This document shows, one piece after another, positions 5,814 to 58,185 of a DNA stretch of 58,508 nt. Under the pieces are notes generated by a model. That model saw only the letters and a program-made list of their open reading frames with translations, did no database searches and had not been told where the DNA came from. The DNA is taken from contig JAJYFR010000006.1 of assembly GCA_021785355.1 (NCBI GenBank), forward strand, positions 1 through 58,508, read 5' to 3'. Every line of letters begins with the position of its first letter. Position 1 is the first letter of the stretch. A program made the translations under genes and the position numbers. Source of the DNA: a bacterium. Lineage in GTDB: Bacteria; Patescibacteriota; Dojkabacteria; JAKAPS01; JAJZLI01.

Positions 5814-6254
5814 CTATTCCATTTTAAAATCTAAAATATATTTAACAGACGTTATTTTATTTTTTACATTATTAAACAATTTTTTATCTGCTGTAATGAA
5901 ATCATATTTCAAAAATTGTGAAAGGGTGACATAGGAGGCATCATAAAAAGATAAATCGTATTTTATTGATATGTCTAATATATCTAAATAGATTTCTTTT
6001 AAATCATAAAAAATTATTCCATAGTTATTAAAGAGATCTAAAGACTCTTTAGCTAAATTGATATCCAGTTTCTTTAATCTCACTGCTTTGGAAAATACAT
6101 TTCCAATCTCATAATTGAGTATTGCAGGGGAATGTAAATTGATTTGTCCTATATCATATAAATGTTTTAATTTTAGTGCAATATCAATATGTTCTTCTTT
6201 GGGGAATTGTAAATACCATTTAACAATAATTGAATTATCTAAAATTAAATTCAT
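5814..6254 (-). CDS. PIN-domain ribonuclease toxin (VapC-like)
   Basis: A 146-residue PIN-fold protein. The acidic residues expected to bind Mg2+ are in LDNSIIVKWY (Asp6), LNYEIGNVF, YDASYVTLS and ITADKKL. VapC toxins are site-specific RNases that cut tRNA or rRNA. It follows its RHH antitoxin with a 4-bp overlap (6251-6254) and is transcribed toward the repeat copy at 5686-5770. Confidence 0.85.
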   Translation of the reverse strand: MNLILDNSIIVKWYLQFPKEEHIDIALKLKHLYDIGQINLHSPAILNYEIGNVFSKAVRLKKLDINLAKESLDLFNNYGIIFYDLKEIYLDILDISIKYDLSFYDASYVTLSQFLKYDFITADKKLFNNVKNKITSVKYILDFKME

Positions 6255-8414: not shown

Positions 8415-8666
8415 ATGGATGAAGAAGTAAAAACAACAATTAGATTACCTAGATATTTGATTAAAGAGTATAAAAACTTTGCAAAGAATACACATACTAG
8501 TATGAATAGTTCTATTGAGACAGCCTTGAAGTATTTCTTATCTAAAGAGATAACTGTACAAATAAGTGTACTCAATAACAATATTAAAAAAATTAAAATT
8601 CCAACTTTTAGTATGGGTAATATAAAAAGAATAGACAGAAAGAGTATTTATGAAGATATTGTTTGA
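8415..8666 (+). CDS. RHH antitoxin (VapB-like)
   Basis: An 83-residue protein. VKTTIRLPRYLIKEYKNFAK with MNSSIETALKYFL is a ribbon-helix-helix domain. It overlaps the PIN toxin downstream by 17 bp, which suggests tight translational coupling. A TAGTAT hexamer (8403-8408) lies exactly six bases before the ATG, in line with a leaderless transcript. Unlike the other pairs of this island it is on the plus strand. Confidence 0.75.
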   Translation: MDEEVKTTIRLPRYLIKEYKNFAKNTHTSMNSSIETALKYFLSKEITVQISVLNNNIKKIKIPTFSMGNIKRIDRKSIYEDIV

Positions 8667-9075
8667 TACAAATATATTAGTTTATGCACATAACGCAGAT
8701 TCCCCATTTAATCAAAAAGCATTAGAGTTATATAACACAACGGAAAATATATGCACCACCCAGCAAAATCTTTTAGAGTTCTACTCTGTGATTACCAATG
8801 ATAAAAGAGTAGAGAAACCTGTGACTGATATGAAAGCACAGTCTTTATTAAAATTTTACTCTGATTCGCAAAAATTTAATATCATATCTCCTAATATAAA
8901 TACTATAAAAATATTAAATGAATTAGCCACTCAGTATAGATTTAAGGGTGTTGAAATTTTTGACATATATATTGTTGCTACTATGATTTCTAATGATATT
9001 TCAATAATATATACTGCAGATACAAAAATCTTTAAGAAATTTCAATCAATAACAGTACTAAACCCATTTATCTGA
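8650..9075 (+). CDS. PIN-domain ribonuclease toxin (VapC-like)
   Basis: A 141-residue PIN protein. Acidic positions are in LFDTNILVYAH (Asp6), LLEFYSVI, EIFDIYIVATMI and YTADTKIF. The family cleaves structured RNA in a Mg2+-dependent way. It is paired with the RHH antitoxin at 8415-8666 and lies between repeat copies 4 and 5, next to the tRNA gene. Confidence 0.85.
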   Translation: MKILFDTNILVYAHNADSPFNQKALELYNTTENICTTQQNLLEFYSVITNDKRVEKPVTDMKAQSLLKFYSDSQKFNIISPNINTIKILNELATQYRFKGVEIFDIYIVATMISNDISIIYTADTKIFKKFQSITVLNPFI

Positions 9076-33983: not shown

Positions 33984-35108
33984 TTAAAAAATCAAATTTT
34001 GAGAATTCTCTATCCATTCAGCAACACTAAAAGGAGTTATACTAGACCTATCTCTTGTATCTATCATAATATTACTTTTTGATATCATTTCAATCATATC
34101 TTTCTTCTCTCCTATAAAAGACCTCTCCGGAAGATTAATTGTTATATGAGCTTTATCTTTAACAGGAATTGTAATTATATTATTTCTATTAACTTTTATA
34201 TTTTTAATACTTTCATCATCAACAATTTTTACATCAATATCAAGATTCATAGGAGCATTAGTACTGAATCCTACATTAAAGACATCTGATACATGTTTTA
34301 TATTAGAAAATATATATTCATCAGGTAAATGATTTAAAAGAGACATTACATTATTATTATCAATATATACACTTATTATTCCTTCTAAATGTAACCCATA
34401 TAATAGAGAGAATACAGCATAATTAGAATTAGATAGAAATTGATATAGGTCTCCCGTAAGTATAAATATAGGAATACTATCTACCCTATCATAATTAAAA
34501 TTAGACAATAAATTTTTATTTAATAAAGATAGTATTGGCAATGTCATTTCTTCTTTAAAATTAAGAGAGAATCTTGATATAAAGTTATATAAGTTATATT
34601 TTCTTATTTTGCCATTAAGAATAGAAAGATCTGAAAAATCTTTAATTTTAAATAATTGATCATAAAGATAATCAAAACTTGTTATCTGAGAAGAAAAATT
34701 ACTATTACCTGATATAAATATACTATCTCTGGATATATTCAATATAAAAGTAGGTATATTATCAAATTTTTTTGAAAATTCAGAAGATATATTATTAAAA
34801 TAATCTTGATTTAAAACGAAAATAGTACTTGTAATTTCTAAAAAATCTTTTCTAAAAAAATCTAAAGATGTATATAAATCTATTTCTATAGAATTAATAT
34901 CTGTAAATTCATTATATTTATGAATAAAAAAAGATACTATTTTATTCAGATACGAAACTCTATTGAATAAAGGGTTAAAAAATTCTTGTAAAATTGGAAT
35001 CTTTTTTTCTAAAAGTATATCTTGATCAAAAAAAAGAAATCCTTTTATATAAAAATTATCAATTAATAATATAAATTTATATTTATTGGCAGTATCTAAG
35101 TTTTCCAT
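33984..35108 (-). CDS. unknown protein, paired with 32976-33980
   Basis: 374 residues, mainly alternating beta strands and helices, with FILLIDNFYIKGFLFFD at the start and the regular end SITPFSVAEWIENSQN. It contains an IFILTGDLYQFLSN stretch and looks like an actin-like or MurJ-adjacent fold only superficially; I cannot assign it. It lies 3 bp from the following unknown gene, so the two probably work together. Confidence 0.5.
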   Translation of the reverse strand: MENLDTANKYKFILLIDNFYIKGFLFFDQDILLEKKIPILQEFFNPLFNRVSYLNKIVSFFIHKYNEFTDINSIEIDLYTSLDFFRKDFLEITSTIFVLNQDYFNNISSEFSKKFDNIPTFILNISRDSIFISGNSNFSSQITSFDYLYDQLFKIKDFSDLSILNGKIRKYNLYNFISRFSLNFKEEMTLPILSLLNKNLLSNFNYDRVDSIPIFILTGDLYQFLSNSNYAVFSLLYGLHLEGIISVYIDNNNVMSLLNHLPDEYIFSNIKHVSDVFNVGFSTNAPMNLDIDVKIVDDESIKNIKVNRNNIITIPVKDKAHITINLPERSFIGEKKDMIEMISKSNIMIDTRDRSSITPFSVAEWIENSQNLIF

Positions 35109-35881: not shown

Positions 35882-36217
35882 TTAAACATTTTTTTGTATT
35901 TTTACTGTACTAAATTTTTTAACAGAAAATATTCCAAATCTTATTATTTCAGATACTACTCTTGCTGATTTTATTAATTTATCAACATTATCTGCCACAA
36001 AATTCTCACCAGCTTCAAGATTATATAAAATATAATAACCTTCTTTATGTTTTTTTATAACATAAGATAGATATCTTTTTCCCCAAACATCTTGGTTAAC
36101 AACTTTTAGATCTAAATCTTTCATTAGCCCTTCAATTTTATCTAACACAGCAACACGAACATTCTCTGGTAAAGAAGGTTTAAGTGTCAACATAAATTCG
36201 TATTTTTTACTCTTCAT
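35882..36217 (-). CDS. rpsF: ribosomal protein bS6
   Basis: 111 residues. KYEFMLTLKPSLPENVRVAV, WGKRYLSYVIKKHKEGYYIL and ARVVSEIIRFGIFSVKKF fit S6. It is the first gene of rpsF-ssb-rpsR and lies 55 bp after the small membrane protein gene of the cytochrome operon. Confidence 0.92.
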   Translation of the reverse strand: MKSKKYEFMLTLKPSLPENVRVAVLDKIEGLMKDLDLKVVNQDVWGKRYLSYVIKKHKEGYYILYNLEAGENFVADNVDKLIKSARVVSEIIRFGIFSVKKFSTVKIQKNV

Positions 36218-36272: not shown

Positions 36273-36632
36273 TTAATAAATAATGGATTTTAGCACATCT
36301 TTATATTTAGAAGAAATATGAAGAGTTTCTATATTTATTTTCTTTAAAACCAAATCATTAGAAATTTCCATTAGCATATCTTCTCTAACATTCGCTTTCT
36401 TTAAAATATTAACTACCTGATCCCTTAGAGTGATATATTTTTTAATATTCCTGAATCTATATAAAATAGACGTGAAATAAACTGAAAGAATACTAAGAGG
36501 TATAAAAAAAAGTGAAAAAAAATAAAAATTTCCCACAGTTATATTACTATAAGAAAAATACATTAAAGGTATTGCTATTAAAAAAATAAGAACACCTATA
36601 ATAAAGTCTACTTTATAGTTATTCTCTCTCAT
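36273..36632 (-). CDS. small two-TM protein of the cytochrome b operon
   Basis: 119 residues. Two membrane segments (DFIIGVLIFLIAIPLMYFSY near 9-28 and FYFFSLFFIPLSILSVYF near 36-54) are followed by a helical soluble tail of about 60 residues. No cofactor-binding motif (no Cys, few His). It overlaps the preceding gene by 14 bp, so it is co-translated with the cytochrome b parts and may be an accessory subunit. Confidence 0.6.
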   Translation of the reverse strand: MRENNYKVDFIIGVLIFLIAIPLMYFSYSNITVGNFYFFSLFFIPLSILSVYFTSILYRFRNIKKYITLRDQVVNILKKANVREDMLMEISNDLVLKKINIETLHISSKYKDVLKSIIY

Positions 36633-37557
36633 AATATCTTTTCCAAATTACTTTATACAAAGGTATGTAATAAGGTATTTTATTAATTATAGGTATAAAT
36701 GGAGCAAAAATAAGAAGAGTCATAACCAAACCAAATGTAGCAAAAGCCATCAAATCACCTGAAGCTGTAGTTGAATATGGAGGAATCTGGTATAAAAATG
36801 TATATATGCCTAACCACCAAGGACCAGGATAATTCCCTTCTTCTTTTAATATACCCCACTGATTTCCTAGCATAGAATATTTATTTGCTACATTACGAAG
36901 AGGTGTTCCTTGTAAAAACAATAAAGAATTTTGATAATTGTATGTGTAAGTACTATTATTTCCAGGTAAATTATTATTTAAAACATTTTCTAAAATACCA
37001 CTTTTCCCCATTCTAAGAAGATAAGTAATCATTTGAGGTATAGGACCATACACTCCTTTCTTAACAACAATTTTACCTCTTCTATATTTAGCATTATTTA
37101 ATGCATTATAATAATTGTTTTCCATTTTTGTTAATAAAGATGAGTTATTCTTCTTTAAATAAAAATACTGATTCATAATTTTAGACAAAGAAGGATCTAC
37201 TTTGGATTCTATTTTCAGAGGATTTTCAACAAATGTTTTGATAGAATTTACAGGGACATCTACCCCCTCTATTCCCTCAGGAGAAATAAAACCAATACTT
37301 TGTACTTGTCCTTGAGAACTATTATTATAAGGAGGTCCATATGTTGCTATTGCACTTAAACCCAGTATATTTCTCATTTCAACTTGAGCAAATTCTACTG
37401 GATTCTGATTTGCAAATTGCTTTATTGAATAAGGTTTCATTTGAGGAGATTTAAAAAATATAGCAAACAAAATTATAACTATAATTACGCCCAAAAAAGC
37501 ATAAATAAATTCCTTTACTAAATCAGATTCTTTTTGTTTGTATTTAGATTCATCCAT
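36619..37557 (-). CDS. cytochrome b C-terminal/subunit IV-like protein
   Basis: 312 residues. An N-terminal membrane segment (EFIYAFLGVIIVIILFAIFF) is followed by a large soluble region containing VEMRNILGLSAIATYGPPYN, a motif seen in menaquinol-cytochrome c reductase-type proteins. PGPWWLGIYTFLYQIPPYST, like the PDWYF..Y segment of subunit IV, and two C-terminal membrane segments follow. There is no Cys and hence no CxxCH heme c site. With the diheme cytochrome b upstream it should form a quinone-reactive b6/IV-like core. Confidence 0.6.
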   Translation of the reverse strand: MDESKYKQKESDLVKEFIYAFLGVIIVIILFAIFFKSPQMKPYSIKQFANQNPVEFAQVEMRNILGLSAIATYGPPYNNSSQGQVQSIGFISPEGIEGVDVPVNSIKTFVENPLKIESKVDPSLSKIMNQYFYLKKNNSSLLTKMENNYYNALNNAKYRRGKIVVKKGVYGPIPQMITYLLRMGKSGILENVLNNNLPGNNSTYTYNYQNSLLFLQGTPLRNVANKYSMLGNQWGILKEEGNYPGPWWLGIYTFLYQIPPYSTTASGDLMAFATFGLVMTLLIFAPFIPIINKIPYYIPLYKVIWKRYYERE

Positions 37558-38152
37558 TTGTTTTTTCTATTTCAATAGGAGGAACAACTCCCTTTTTTCT
37601 AACTATATAAAGATGTAGTGATAATATTAAAATTATAACAATAGGCAATATTATTGTATGAAAACCATATAATTGAGAATTATCTAATATATTAATAAAT
37701 CTAGACAGTCCTATTGCATTCATGGCATCTTTTGCTTGAACTTGATTCCATTGAGCAAAAAATCCACCTCCGATTAAAAATCCAAAGAAAGCTTCAAACA
37801 TAGATATAGCAAATAATAATGAGCCTAGAATCCAAGTAATTATTCTACCTTCTCTCCATCCTGCCATGAAGAATACAGACAATATATGTATAAATAAGAA
37901 AAAAAAGAAAAACTGAGCCCCCCAAAAATGTACTGACCTAAAGAACAAACCTAACGATGAATATTGATACCACAAAGGACCTTCTATAACCATAACTATT
38001 CCTGAAAGAATAATTATAGCCAAACTTGCCATTGTAAGAACCCCAAACATATATAAAAAAGAAGATACATATACAGGCAATGTATCTGGAAGCAATATAT
38101 CTGGATCTAAATCTTTTTTTATTATATTTTTTAATATTTTAGTTATGTTCAT
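37550..38152 (-). CDS. diheme cytochrome b N-terminal half (b6-like)
   Basis: 200 residues with four membrane segments. Two pairs of His lie 13-14 residues apart in the second and fourth segments: SVHFWGAQFFFFFLFIHILS, and FHTIILPIVIILILSLHLY. This is the heme bH/bL ligand pattern of cytochrome b/b6. FMAGWREGRIITWILGSLL after the first pair and FEAFFGFLIGG correspond to the usual ...R.ITW..G..L and G..L regions. It would accept electrons from a quinol. No Rieske or cytochrome c gene is in the window. It overlaps both neighbours. Confidence 0.8.
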   Translation of the reverse strand: MNITKILKNIIKKDLDPDILLPDTLPVYVSSFLYMFGVLTMASLAIIILSGIVMVIEGPLWYQYSSLGLFFRSVHFWGAQFFFFFLFIHILSVFFMAGWREGRIITWILGSLLFAISMFEAFFGFLIGGGFFAQWNQVQAKDAMNAIGLSRFINILDNSQLYGFHTIILPIVIILILSLHLYIVRKKGVVPPIEIEKTNG

Positions 38153-38288
38153 CTTTTTTATTTCTTTTTTTACTTGAAAAATTTGGATAAGGAAAAAATA
38201 AAGCTACACAAAAAACAAGAGGTATTAGCAAATATATAAGAATATCTATATAAAAAGAATTTGTCATCATATATCTAAGGTTTAACAT
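38139..38288 (-). CDS. 49-residue single-TM protein, first gene of the cytochrome b operon
   Basis: From ATG at 38288: MLNLRYMMTNSFYIDILIYL, then LIPLVFCVALFFPYPNFSSK and a basic tail (KKRNKKDEHN), TAA at 38139. Met7 or Met8 are alternative starts. One membrane segment with a positive inside tail resembles the small accessory subunits of b6f/bc-type complexes. It overlaps the cytochrome b start by 14 bp. Confidence 0.5.
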   Translation of the reverse strand: MLNLRYMMTNSFYIDILIYLLIPLVFCVALFFPYPNFSSKKRNKKDEHN

Positions 38289-38300
38289 ATTTTAAAAAAA

Positions 38301-38906
38301 ATGTTAATATCTATAATTATAATGTTTACAAATATGGAAAATATAAATATTTATTTATTTAGAATTATTAATAATTTAGCAACAAATCAATATATAAATT
38401 TATTCTTCTCTTTATCAGCTCAATATTTAATATTTTTATATCTATTATTTATTATATTTATTTGGTTCTATAAAAAACAAATAAACAAGAAATTAGACAA
38501 TAAAAGAATTTTTATCCTGTCTGTACTTTCATCTATACTATCTCTTATAATAAATAAAGTTTTAGGATATATATATTATGAAAAAAGACCTTTTGTATCA
38601 CTAAAGCATGTTAATCTTTTATTTAAATATACACCTAACAATTCTTTTCCATCTGACCATATGGCTGTAGTTTCATCCATTGCAGTAATGATATATATAT
38701 ATAATAAAAAATTAGGAATATTCTTACTTGTAATATCTTTACTCATAGGTTTTTCTAGAGTCTTTTCTGGGGTACATTTTCCTATAGATATAATTGTAGG
38801 ATTTTTATCTGCATTAATATCCGCATTAATTGTATATGGATATAGAGAAAAATTAAACTTCTTAACAGAATTTCTTATGAAAATTAGTATAAAATTACAT
38901 TTATAA
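38301..38906 (+). CDS. PAP2-family membrane phosphatase (undecaprenyl-PP phosphatase-like)
   Basis: Six membrane segments and the three-part PAP2 site: YYEKRPFVSL (K..RP), NSFPSDHMAV (PSGH-like with Asp) and SRVFSGVHFPIDIIVG (SRxxxxxHxxxD). These enzymes dephosphorylate undecaprenyl diphosphate or phosphatidate. The frame opens at 38301, but a TATAAT at 38312-38317 suggests that translation starts at 38322 or 38334 (MENINIYLFRII). It is divergent from the cytochrome operon. Confidence 0.85.
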   Translation: MLISIIIMFTNMENINIYLFRIINNLATNQYINLFFSLSAQYLIFLYLLFIIFIWFYKKQINKKLDNKRIFILSVLSSILSLIINKVLGYIYYEKRPFVSLKHVNLLFKYTPNNSFPSDHMAVVSSIAVMIYIYNKKLGIFLLVISLLIGFSRVFSGVHFPIDIIVGFLSALISALIVYGYREKLNFLTEFLMKISIKLHL

Positions 38907-39231
38907 GATCTTTTAGTCATGCGTAAGCCGAATTCTGTTTTATGTGTCCATCTATCTTGAATAAATATTTCTATTTATTTCTTTGCGTTTTTAACTTGCT
39001 GGAGGTGGAGGTTACAATGCCATAGTAAATCACTTTCTATGCGGTAGTCTCTTACACTACCTTTTCACCCTTACTCTAAAAAAGAGCGGTATACTTTCTG
39101 TTGCCCTAATCTAAAGATTACTCCTTACTATCAGTTAAATAGCACCCACTTCATTAAAATAATGCCAGTTCGGACTTTCCTCACATCTATATAAATATAG
39201 AAAGCGTAGACACATACATAACTAAAAGATC
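38907..39231 (-). ncRNA. rnpB: RNase P RNA
   Basis: On the minus strand: GAGGAAAGTCCGAAC (CR I), GGGCAACAGAAAGTATACCG (CR II), AAGGGTGAAAAGGTAGTGTA (CR III) and ACAGAATTCGGCTTACGCAT (CR V), all in the correct order within 325 nt. The ends pair as GATCTTTTAGT with ACTAAAAGATC, extending helix P1. It cleaves the 5' leader of tRNA precursors. Its 3' end overlaps the tail of no gene; PAP2 ends 1 bp before it. Confidence 0.95.
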
Positions 39232-49024: not shown

Positions 49025-50434
49025 ATGAGAGTAAGAACACGAATTGCTCCATCACCTACCGGAGATCCTCATATAGGAACGATATATCAGGCACTATTTG
49101 ATTATGCATATGCAAAACAAAATAAAGGAAATTTTATTTTAAGAGTTGAAGATACTGACAGAGAAAGATTTGTAGAAGGAGCAACTCAAAAAATCTTATC
49201 TTCTCTTAAGTGGTTTTCTATTGAACCTGATGAAAGTCCTGTGCATGGAGGAGATTTTGGACCATATGTTCAATCAGAGAGATTAGATATATATAAAAAA
49301 TATATTAACGATTTAATATTAAAAAAAGAGGCATATTTGTGTTTTTGTACAAAAGAAAGACTTGATCATATAAGAGAAGAACAAATAAAAAATAAACAAC
49401 AGCCTAAATATGATAAACATTGCTTAAATCTTACAAAAAAAGAGATTGATGATCTAATAAATAAAGGTACACCTTCTGTTGTTAGATTAAATGTCAAACC
49501 AGGAATTGATATTATTTTTAATGACCTTATCAGAGGAGAAATCAAAATTAAGACTGATTCATTTGATGATCAAGTATTATTAAAATCTGATGGATATCCA
49601 ACTTATCATGCAGCAGTAGTAATAGATGATCATTTAATGAAAATAACTCATATTATAAGAGGGGAAGAATGGATATCTTCTACTCCAAAACATATACTTT
49701 TATATAAAGCTTTTGAATGGGATATTCCTATGTTTGCTCATTTATCTTTACTTAGAAATAGAGATAAATCAAAAATATCTAAAAGACATAATAATACATC
49801 CATAGATTGGTACAAAAAAGAAGGATATCTTCCTGAAGCATTAACTAATTATCTTTTATTATTAGGGTGGTCTCATCCAGAAGGAAAAGAAGTATATTCT
49901 TTAGATGAATTTATTAAAAAATTTTCATTTGATAGGGTAAGTAAAGGTGGTCCTATCTTTGATATAGATAAACTTAATTGGATAAATGGTGTATATATAA
50001 GATCTAAAAGTGTTATTGAAATAAAAAAACTTATAAAGCCTTATTTAATATATGATATTGAAAATAAGAAATTAGAAGAGATTATAAAACTTATACAAGA
50101 TAGATTAAAAAAATTATCAGAAATAAATGATTTAATATCATTTTTTGTAGAAACACCTCAAATAGATCAAGAAATTTTGGAAAACATAATATCTAAAGAT
50201 AAAATAGATGAAATATGTGATATATCATATAAAACTATTGAGGATAAAGGTATTAATCGTGACACAGAAGAAACTCTTAGAAATTATGCTATAGAAAAAG
50301 GATATAATATTGGAGATTTCTTTATGATTATAAGAATAGTTACAACTGGTAAAAAAGCTACACCACCTTTATTTGATACATTATCTATAATAGGGAAAAA
50401 AGAAACATTAAAAAGGCTAAAGAATGGGAGATAG
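49025..50434 (+). CDS. gltX: glutamyl-tRNA synthetase
   Basis: 469 residues. The HIGH motif is in APSPTGDPHIGTIYQALFDY, and KMSKS in RDKSKISKRHNNTS. The catalytic domain ends YLLLLGWSHPEGKEVYSLDE and the C-terminal anticodon-binding domain follows. The gene's TAG stop lies inside the 5' acceptor strand of tRNA-Gln. A non-discriminating GluRS charging tRNA-Gln is plausible, but cannot be proven here. Confidence 0.95.
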   Translation: MRVRTRIAPSPTGDPHIGTIYQALFDYAYAKQNKGNFILRVEDTDRERFVEGATQKILSSLKWFSIEPDESPVHGGDFGPYVQSERLDIYKKYINDLILKKEAYLCFCTKERLDHIREEQIKNKQQPKYDKHCLNLTKKEIDDLINKGTPSVVRLNVKPGIDIIFNDLIRGEIKIKTDSFDDQVLLKSDGYPTYHAAVVIDDHLMKITHIIRGEEWISSTPKHILLYKAFEWDIPMFAHLSLLRNRDKSKISKRHNNTSIDWYKKEGYLPEALTNYLLLLGWSHPEGKEVYSLDEFIKKFSFDRVSKGGPIFDIDKLNWINGVYIRSKSVIEIKKLIKPYLIYDIENKKLEEIIKLIQDRLKKLSEINDLISFFVETPQIDQEILENIISKDKIDEICDISYKTIEDKGINRDTEETLRNYAIEKGYNIGDFFMIIRIVTTGKKATPPLFDTLSIIGKKETLKRLKNGR

Positions 50435-50576: not shown

Positions 50577-50756
50577 ATGAGTAAAGAAGAGAATAAGAAA
50601 CTTATAAAATTATACCAAGAGTATAGACAAAGAAAAATATTGAAAGAGGATGTCTTACAATTTTCACGTGATTTTATGCCTGAAATGATTTATCGTACAA
50701 CTAAATTAGAAGGTGAGCCTGTTACAAGACAAATGGTATCTTTACTATTTAAATAA
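50577..50756 (+). CDS. Fic antitoxin-like peptide carrying the inhibitory helix
   Basis: 59 residues: MSKEENKKLIKLYQEYRQRK, then PEMIYRTTKLEGEPVTRQMV and SLLFK, stop TAA at 50754-50756. TTKLEGEP fits the inhibitory motif (S/T)xxxE(G/N), whose Glu blocks ATP orientation in Fic enzymes. It overlaps the Fic gene by one base (TAATG). Either this is a genuine two-gene class I antitoxin/toxin pair, or a single class II Fic gene recently split by a frameshift. The sequence alone does not decide. Confidence 0.6.
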   Translation: MSKEENKKLIKLYQEYRQRKILKEDVLQFSRDFMPEMIYRTTKLEGEPVTRQMVSLLFK

Positions 50757-51388
50757 TGGTCAAAAGTGGTACGAAACCTAAAGGCGCAACATCATATAAA
50801 GATACAGCTTTTGGAATTATTTCTCGAGAAGAACTTATTAAGCTTGAGATTGAAGGGATAAAGAGAGGACTAGAATATTTATATGATCTAGTGCAAAAAC
50901 AAGAACAGGTTGCAATTACTTCAGAATTAATAACGAAACTTCATGAAATTTCTTTTGGTTGGATTTTTCCTAAATGGGCAGGAAAATATAGAACAATTCA
51001 AGTAACATTTTCTGATAAAGAAGCTCCACCATATTATCAAGTATCAGAATTAATGTTCAATTTCTCTAAAGATATAGAATCACGGTTACAAAATCTCCCT
51101 ACTCCAGATAAAGAAAACTTTATTTTTGAAATAATATCCTTATCAGCTTGGTTTCAACATAGATTTGTTTTTATTCATCCATTCCAAGATTACAATGGGA
51201 GGACAGCACGAATGCTAACGACTTTCATATTACTACAATTCAAACTACCCTCTATTGAATTAAAAGCAGATACAGGAGATGACAGGAAACAATATCTTAA
51301 AGCAATGAGGAAAGCAGATGATGGTGATTATAAACTTCTTGAAAGACTTATTAGCCGAGCACTAACAGACAGTCTTAATCATATTTAA
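50756..51388 (+). CDS. Fic-domain AMP transferase toxin
   Basis: 210 residues. The catalytic motif is FIHPFQDYNGRTARM (His141; HxFx(D/N)xNxRxxR satisfied), with the preceding flap region GKYRTIQVTF (compare G.yR...v.v). Fic enzymes transfer AMP from ATP to target proteins. The inhibitory helix is encoded separately just upstream. Bases 51389-51619 hold only the short element at 51544-51568. Confidence 0.85.
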   Translation: MVKSGTKPKGATSYKDTAFGIISREELIKLEIEGIKRGLEYLYDLVQKQEQVAITSELITKLHEISFGWIFPKWAGKYRTIQVTFSDKEAPPYYQVSELMFNFSKDIESRLQNLPTPDKENFIFEIISLSAWFQHRFVFIHPFQDYNGRTARMLTTFILLQFKLPSIELKADTGDDRKQYLKAMRKADDGDYKLLERLISRALTDSLNHI

Positions 51389-57192: not shown

Positions 57193-58185
57193 ATGAACTT
57201 AAATAAAAATACTAGTTACGTATTAATACATATTCTTAACGGGAATAATACTTCTAAAAAAATTAGCGAACAATTACGAAACGTCAATATTCGTTCTATT
57301 CAACGTGCTTTAATCAGACTAACAGACTTAGGATTATTGACACGTATCGGGACGAATCATCCTAATTACAGCATTAACTATGAAGTATTGTTAGACTTAA
57401 ACATTTCCGATAAATTACTAGAGAACGAAAATCGACCTAAAAGTATGTTCAATCATGAACTTATAGAATGGTTAACTAAATTATCTACTAAAGAACTAGA
57501 ATTGCTATTAAAAATCGATGATGATAAGTTAGTATTTAAACATCCCAATAAAATGACAGCTAAAGAACTGGAGTATCTTACTATTGAGCTTTCGTGGAAG
57601 TCGTCAGCTCTCGAGGGTAATACATATACATTATTAGATACTCAATTATTACTTCTAGAAGGAATAAAGGCTAAGAACAGAACAGAGTTTGAGACACAGA
57701 TGATTCTAAATCATAAAGATGCCATTGCTTTTATAGTTGAGAATAAAGAATTATTCTCCAATAACATAAAATTTAGAACAGTTGAAGAACTTCATAGGAT
57801 AATTGGTAAAAATCTAGGAATAGAGAGTGGAATTAGAAAACAAATTGTCAGGATCACTGCTAGCAACTATGAACCTCTATCTAACCCTCATCAATTAAGA
57901 GAAAATGGTGACTACATTTTGGAAATAATAAATAGAACGACTAACTCTTATATAAAAGCACTTCTGGCTCTTTCCCTAATTCCATATTTACAAATATTTG
58001 AAGACGGCAATAAAAGGACTGGAAGGATGTTCGCCAATGCCATATTAATAAGTCATATCAATAAAGGTTTTAGTCTACGCCAAACAGATGCTAAAAAACT
58101 GGCCATAGCTTATTTGGCTTTTTATGAATTCAACAGCATTCATGCTCTAAATAAGATTCTTAAAACTGAACTTCAATCAAACTAG
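57193..58185 (+). CDS. Fic-family protein with winged helix and altered catalytic motif
   Basis: 330 residues. The N-terminal winged helix (VLIHILNGNNTSKKISEQLR, then SIQRALIRLTDLGLLTRIGT) is followed by the class II inhibitory motif SSALEGN (Ser137, Glu141) and the Fic domain. The motif reads YLQIFEDGNKRTGRMF, so the catalytic His of HPFxxGNGR is Gln267 and Gly is Lys. AMP transfer is probably lost; a regulatory or different activity is possible. The 5' third uses CGT/CGA Arg codons (for example 57276-57309), unlike the AGA of its neighbours, a sign of transfer. Confidence 0.8.
   Translation: MNLNKNTSYVLIHILNGNNTSKKISEQLRNVNIRSIQRALIRLTDLGLLTRIGTNHPNYSINYEVLLDLNISDKLLENENRPKSMFNHELIEWLTKLSTKELELLLKIDDDKLVFKHPNKMTAKELEYLTIELSWKSSALEGNTYTLLDTQLLLLEGIKAKNRTEFETQMILNHKDAIAFIVENKELFSNNIKFRTVEELHRIIGKNLGIESGIRKQIVRITASNYEPLSNPHQLRENGDYILEIINRTTNSYIKALLALSLIPYLQIFEDGNKRTGRMFANAILISHINKGFSLRQTDAKKLAIAYLAFYEFNSIHALNKILKTELQSN

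Follow-up and report, generated by a model that had tools for sequence, protein, structure and literature searches.

A conserved cytochrome b-type complex of Patescibacteria that may act without a Rieske protein

Main finding and background

A four-gene operon in a reduced genome of Patescibacteria was found to encode a membrane complex that belongs to the cytochrome b/b6 superfamily and is filed here apart from complex III. The complex was tentatively interpreted as a Rieske-independent, quinone-reactive transmembrane electron conduit, which would probably re-oxidise quinol made by type II NADH dehydrogenase (NDH-2); its reactivity with quinol, the direction of electron flow and the outer partner are what we infer. 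It is doubtful whether the complex is also a possibly energy-conserving replacement of complex III, consisting of a cytochrome b alone with an outer cap and exchanged by transfer between Patescibacteria and Actinobacteria.

According to the available excerpts of two papers, Patescibacteriota widely lack complex III, which an unidentified protein must replace in some MAGs (PMC12931201, 2025), and electron transport chains were ancestrally absent in Patescibacteria (PMC7507113). The family was not described in the available excerpts of the open-licence literature on CPR electron transport (PMC7507113, PMC7304191, PMC8407418, PMC9166423 and PMC12931201). Further searches of the open-licence literature listed no paper that was seen to describe it. 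Respiration of Patescibacteria is disputed, and a conserved Rieske-less cytochrome b offers a concrete candidate for it and for the missing link in electron movement of reduced-genome bacteria. If a cytochrome b does operate with no Rieske protein, this would also bear on the evolution of the Q cycle. Because the gene is also present in cultivated Acidithrix, Ferrithrix and Trebonia, its function can be tested without growing tiny bacteria.

The operon and its genomic context

The window, i.e., the whole analysed stretch, corresponds to contig C8 (58,508 bases) of a genome of 883 kb in 13 contigs (G000; 94.7% complete). Four minus-strand ORFs at positions 36273-38288 run head to tail with overlaps of 14, 8 and 14 bases. 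Their products are a one-TM protein of 49 aa, a cytochrome b6-like protein of 200 aa, a protein of 312 aa that resembles subunit IV, and a two-TM protein of 119 aa. The first-pass annotation had proposed a cytochrome b-type operon of four overlapping genes next to rpsF-ssb-rpsR, and this was confirmed by the ORFs and by Pfam matches above cut-off, including those of the three downstream genes. The features are as follows.

38139..38288, minus strand: one-TM subunit of 49 aa that probably corresponds to the first helix of the fused relatives (ORF; helix with PYP ending pattern, position)
37550..38152, minus strand: cytochrome b6-like diheme protein, 200 aa, helices A-D, predicted heme ligands His75/89 and His165/180 (Pfam, profile, alignments)
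36619..37557, minus strand: subunit-IV-like protein, 312 aa, with helix E at about 13-34, a predicted outer insert at about 38-243, PGPWW at 244-248, and helices F and G (alignment, models)
36273..36632, minus strand: two-TM protein of 119 aa whose C-terminal tail is polar (ORF, TM-like stretches, locus comparison)
35882..36217, minus strand: rpsF, first gene of the downstream rpsF-ssb-rpsR; context outside the complex (Pfam)
38301..38906, plus strand: divergent PAP2 / undecaprenyl-diphosphatase-like gene upstream of the operon; context (Pfam and NCBIfam)
38909-39225: RNase P RNA, beyond the PAP2 gene

One TM-like stretch was seen in the 49-aa protein and two such regions in the 119-aa protein. 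As had been stated in the first annotation, neither a Rieske protein nor a CxxCH motif was found among the four operon proteins; the b and IV proteins of the window contain no Cys at all.

The order of the b, IV and two-TM genes was identical in four other genomes (G141, G182, G337 and G118), in each of which a 49-aa-like ORF also lies upstream of b, and in G141 the flanks of the operon were alike as well. The window b gene differs from that of G141 at 52, 22 and 81 first, second and third codon positions (198 codons), a pattern that reads as purifying. The operon is thus no chance arrangement. Locus L020 of G118, a genome from a different family of the phylum, resembles the window in that PAP2, ssb and rpsF genes are again found no more than a few kb away from the b, IV and two-TM genes. 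Separately, a 374-aa protein with no Pfam match is encoded at 33984-35108 of the window and at the same place in G141 (L017:5892-7013).

The cytochrome b subunit and its heme ligands

The 200-aa protein matched PF13631 with 44.8 bits (cut-off 27) and PF00033 with 41 bits (cut-off 27.2). Its score against PF01292, which covers superoxide oxidase and cytochrome b561, was 18.2 bits and stayed below the gathering score of 30.1. When the family profile was compared with sequences of solved structures, cytochrome b6 chains ranked first (1q90_B, E 3.7e-21). The only histidines of the protein are residues 75, 89, 165 and 180, with spacings of 14 and 15; the spacing of 15 also occurs in the aligned b6 and QcrB chains, and that of bc1 is 14. 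All four align with the columns that contain the heme ligands of cytochrome b6, in agreement with the two His pairs that had been annotated, and the R..G..P end of helix D is common to both. Two heme-ligating His pairs in helices B and D, the mark of the superfamily, were thus found, and the protein is, as far as its sequence tells, a two-heme cytochrome b-type protein.

The four ligands were kept in 88 of 89 aligned rows (two of them copies of other rows), the exception being L052 with Tyr for one His, and in all 14 carriers of the phylum sample. It had been considered in the first annotation that homologues might lack the His pairs; the 88 rows show that they do not. In the b6f complex, a Cys attaches heme ci covalently. 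Since the window protein has no Cys, the heme ci attachment is predicted to be lacking.

The window proteins share with PetB/PetD of b6f the split b and IV genes, the helix D His spacing of 15, the four ligands and the R..G..P end, and chains of that complex were the best-scoring solved ones. They differ from it by the lack of the heme ci Cys and of PEWY and by approximately 190 extra residues in subunit IV; neither a Rieske protein nor cytochrome f was found in the window operon. Against the NCBIfam cytochrome b6 model, the b protein scored 59.1 bits, whereas the cut-off is 325. The b-type cytochrome ExtP of selenite/tellurite reduction (NF040969) is likewise b6-like, and the window protein scored 57.4 bits against it; however, this is far below the cut-off of 290, and no Ext-type neighbours were recognised in the window. 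Actinobacterial QcrB (cytochrome bcc) has the same single-chain cytochrome b fold and was among the top structural matches of a fused relative, but QcrB of Ferrithrix and Acidithrix has QPDWY, an adjoining Rieske gene and a very long branch separating it from the family. PetAB of 'Ca. Parcunitrobacter nitroensis', in the available excerpt of its description (PMC5220378), is also a cytochrome b complex of a CPR organism whose genome encodes NDH-2; it was set apart on the basis of that description, which presents it as a cytochrome b-Rieske complex next to a tetraheme cytochrome.

Core fold, subunit IV and small subunits

A structure model of the fused relative L022 (pLDDT 86.1, pTM 0.86) was built from an alignment of 73 hand-chosen rows (A5). 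With VIA-align, its best comparison was with the mycobacterial cytochrome b 9gy6_B (Z 22.9, 3.1 A, 283 residues), and Z was 20.0 or more in all 50 rows shown, which covered approximately model residues 87-583, i.e., both halves. With Foldseek, rmsd was 16.9-23.4 A for full-length rows and 2.8-4.2 A for b6 chains. The modelled L022 protein, rather than the window chains, thus presents the predicted seven-helix core A-G of cytochrome b. The window subunit IV modelled alone reached pLDDT 82.8 and pTM 0.73. It matched nothing in the structure library at E <= 0.001, and VIA gave no row with Z >= 2 among 134 chains; for a modelled chain, such a lack of matches does not show a new fold. A profile of 42 hand-chosen subunit IV rows (A6), compared with PDB sequences, gave periplasmic binding proteins as the best rows (E 0.02), which was taken as chance.

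The likeness to subunit IV claimed in the first-pass annotation held, since GPPYN and PGPWW both occur in the 312-aa protein. PGPWW precedes helices F and G and therefore occupies the PEWY position. By hand count, however, approximately 205 residues separate helix E from PGPWW, compared with roughly 30 before QPDWY in QcrB of Acidithrix and Ferrithrix. The complex had been called minimal, which does not fit the roughly 190 additional outer-side residues of its subunit IV. Among the 89 rows, the motif reads PGQPWL in 66, PGQAWL in 10, PGPWWL in 5, PGAWWL in 4 and PGSWW(L) in 2; the two rows with no match are L070, an incomplete sequence, and presumably L024, which reads FPVGAWW. No PEWY or PDWY variant was found in the 42 subunit IV rows, which have the PG(Q)PW-type motif. 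In these rows, Ser37-Pro38, Tyr73, Pro76, Tyr77, Pro113, Phe214, Gly235, Gly245, Trp248 and Asp268 are (nearly) invariant. Glu239, five residues before PGPWW, is present in 90% of them, and Asp12 is present in 81%, with a nearby His instead in the short fused rows.

In cytochrome b, the E-F loop faces outwards. The insert would therefore lie outside, at the place where a Rieske head docks. A cofactor in the insert was considered and rejected: the operon has no CxxCH, and no family-wide Cys or His column was found in the 42 rows, although His occurs in two columns, in 28 and 21 of them, respectively (Ser and Tyr in the window). Because there is no shared metal ligand, a role as cap or docking surface is more probable for the insert than one as a relay.

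The 49-aa protein had been listed in the first annotation as a one-TM protein. Most fused relatives start with a helix that has a PFP motif at its end, and at Acidithrix-type loci this helix is a separate ORF of approximately 60 aa just upstream of b (L107, L091, L092, L093 and L111). The window 49-aa ORF and the ORFs preceding b in L017, L018, L019 and L020 have the same helix with PYP at the same place. Judged by pattern and position, the 49-aa protein is most likely what the fused relatives carry as their N-terminal helix, here encoded separately. In each of the five split loci that were compared, the 119-aa two-TM protein has a counterpart after IV, which shares 19-25% identity with the window protein; the protein was seen in the split-gene group only, and its sequence is little conserved.

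Distribution and phylogeny

The complex was present in 14 of 379 genomes of a phylum sample; two further matches (G229 and G295) of the original 16 were dropped, being short with E near 5e-4, and that of G229 contained stops. The genes are split in G000, G141, G182, G337 and G118 and fused in the other nine carriers. Within the order, 9 of 10 genomes carry the complex: 7 of 8 in the family of the window and 2 of 2 in its sister family, where it is fused. G254 lacks the complex and has a bd oxidase.

Among 575 stretches from public genomes, 548 encode relatives. The best 80 of the 548 came from Saccharibacteria, one 'Levyibacteriota', Actinobacteria and other bacteria, and mostly encode one fused protein; the taxonomic range is thus a lower bound. 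The actinobacterial members of these 80 include Acidithrix ferrooxidans, Ferrithrix thermotolerans, Acidiferrimicrobium and Trebonia kvetii, and Streptosporangiaceae are also among the carriers. L100, L103, L104, L108 and L109 were omitted from the tallies for want of a single usable ORF, and L032 and L110 repeat L022 and L021. Viral contigs carrying the window cytochrome b were also sought; 24 stretches matched by pattern, and none was a relative.

The best 80 of the 548 relatives thus show a widespread family that is shared with Actinobacteria. The phylogeny of the b6-like protein that the first annotation had called for was carried out, and the tree (51 rows, 177 columns) contained groups of split Patescibacteria (88/89), short fused Patescibacteria (93/82), and Saccharibacteria with Actinobacteria (99/99); QcrB fell far outside the family, with branches of 5.2 and 2.7. 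The order of the groups is unsure, given a long-branch warning. In the third group, rows of Saccharibacteria and Actinobacteria interleave, and this mixing suggests gene transfer between them. The two sister families, f1 and f2, differ in the version they carry, pointing to a probable transfer there as well. Actinobacteria are the phylum of the known hosts of Saccharibacteria.

Ferrithrix and Acidithrix also have an ordinary qcrA-qcrB, and Trebonia has a Rieske gene with a QcrB that is incomplete at the end of the stretch. Therefore, the family member is a second cytochrome b in these organisms. At the Ferrithrix locus L105, an NDH-2-like gene adjoins cytochrome b.

NADH dehydrogenase, oxidases and the direction of electron flow

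NDH-2 is encoded in the window genome at C6:46909-48144, and its nearest solved relatives are yeast Ndi1-type enzymes (E 1.6e-34) and other NDH-2. At E <= 1e-50, a threshold that excludes 9 of 102 rows (G346 among them), NDH-2 was found in 10 of 14 carriers of the complex and in 83 of 365 other genomes (Fisher p 2e-4, uncorrected for kinship). A convincing NDH-2 is missing in the remaining four carriers (G118, G256, G339 and G346), which counts against the preferred reading. A statement that NDH-2 is missing where cytochrome b is missing (G254) was withdrawn, as G254 has an NDH-2 fragment at 5.3e-62. The NDH-2 gene (L170:6901-8148, on contig C6) adjoins a GGDEF-like gene and lies near type IV pilus-like genes, an order kept in G141, G182 and G337.

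A search for terminal oxidases, proposed in the first annotation, gave no match to COX1 or cytochrome bd in the window genome. Cytochrome bd was present in two of 15 genomes (G141 and G254), and COX1 in 5 of 14 carriers compared with 24 of 365 others (Fisher p 0.002, with genomes counted as independent and kinship uncorrected). G141 and G337 have the complex together with a quinol-type oxidase; a quinol sink is thus not always missing, which also counts against the preferred reading.

Because NDH-2 is present in the window genome, which has no COX1 or bd match and no membrane Rieske protein, outward flow from quinol is the simplest account there. According to this tentative account, the b6-like diheme four-helix protein and the enlarged subunit IV would form a seven-helix core, joined by the single-helix and two-helix subunits, and the two b hemes would make an electron path across the membrane. 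The inner-side quinone site may persist (its marks being an Asp where helix E begins and R..G behind helix D), and the outer pocket near heme bL may be capped by the insert with no Rieske head, so that quinol oxidation would not be bifurcated. Quinol would come from NDH-2 acting on scavenged quinone; electrons would then cross the hemes and be handed over on the outside to an acceptor that either diffuses or is carried by the host, whereby NADH would be re-oxidised. Direction and acceptor are the weakest steps of this account, and no acceptor gene was found to travel with the operon, which counts against it.

Ferric iron or humic-type compounds in acid habitats could serve as acceptors. Acidithrix, Ferrithrix and Acidiferrimicrobium are tabled as anaerobic ferric-iron reducers in the available part of PMC8790237. 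Iron is only one candidate, iron reduction being a trait of some carrier genera that is not linked to the gene. To our knowledge, the carriers Trebonia and Streptosporangiaceae are not iron reducers, which counts against the link with iron.

A cupredoxin as a general outer partner was rejected, as PF13473 was found in 4 of 15 genomes and not in the window genome. The PF13473 genes of G294 and G097 lie beside copper-transport-like genes, and the proteins of G149 and G118 have, by eye, no obvious Cys ligand.

Electrons might also flow inwards: a donor on the outside, such as Fe(II), superoxide, reduced phenolics or a host carrier, would deliver them to the bL side, from which they would reach an inner quinone, as in superoxide oxidase or a reverse-running bc complex. 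The kept inner-side features and the loss of the PEWY glutamate agree with such a course; the same three actinobacterial genera also oxidise iron, according to the table of PMC8790237 as available, and the normal qcrAB of Acidithrix and Ferrithrix leaves room for a second function. We nevertheless regard inward flow as unlikely: the NDH-2 of the window genome already makes quinol and no oxidase was found there, so that the complex would be a second quinone reductase with no known sink, and the operon contains no donor gene.

Quinone supply

Two UbiA genes were found in the window genome. One is conserved within the taxonomic order of the window and, by its motifs, resembles decaprenyl-phosphate phosphoribosyltransferase. 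The other, the sole quinone-like candidate, is on a 3.7-kb contig of uncertain origin together with a gene of the geranylgeranyl-reductase family, which counts against the preferred reading. That contig (L155; C12, 3,744 bases), with its UbiA-type prenyltransferase and geranylgeranyl-reductase-family genes, looks lipid-related and is perhaps a stray. The UbiA genes show no quinone pathway, and quinone would therefore need to be scavenged. Quinone scavenging has been suggested for CPR by others, in the available excerpts of PMC6031116 and PMC4508563.

The absence of a demonstrated quinone-synthesis set in the window genome would also suit transmembrane quinol:quinone exchange, in which outer and inner sites link own and host pools or a proton gradient drives electrons between them. 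Elements of the outer pocket (the PG.W motif, Glu239 and Asp268) persist under a cap that has no shared metal ligands. However, the idea is speculative and two quinone types lack direct support; we consider it quite unlikely.

Rieske proteins and cytochrome c

The first annotation had called for a search of the genome for a Rieske protein. One was indeed found, but it is a soluble ferredoxin: the sole PF00355 match of the window genome (94.7% complete) is a 103-aa soluble protein at L135:6735-7046 (C13, about 49734-50045) among SUF iron-sulfur assembly genes, so that no membrane-anchored Rieske protein was found in either the operon or the genome. A soluble Rieske ferredoxin among SUF genes also occurs in G141, G337 and G254.

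These observations bear on the possibility that the complex is a true Q-cycle complex III whose Rieske function comes from a protein that is encoded elsewhere or has diverged strongly. In favour of it, all seven helices of the core are retained, small Rieske proteins exist in the window genome and its relatives, and Glu239 might replace the PEWY glutamate. However, 9 of 14 carriers, eight of them 99-100% complete, have no PF00355 match at E <= 0.001, and a TM-like stretch is absent from six Rieske proteins (one each in G000, G141 and G337, two in G182 and one of two matches in G346), of which those of G000, G141 and G337 adjoin SUF genes. Cytochrome c of the PF13442 type was found in none of 15 genomes. 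We therefore consider such a concealed Rieske partner quite unlikely as well.

It is very improbable that the protein is degenerate or has no redox function, or that the contig is a stray: Pfam-level similarity alone is no proof of heme binding, but the ligands are kept almost throughout the family, the codon-position pattern appears purifying, and nine of the ten genomes of the order carry the complex, with the same flanks in G141.

Other genes of the window

Elsewhere in the window, two Fic-domain proteins (50756-51388 and 57193-58185) and two PIN-domain proteins (5814-6254 and 8650-9075) are encoded, which are toxin-antitoxin-like.
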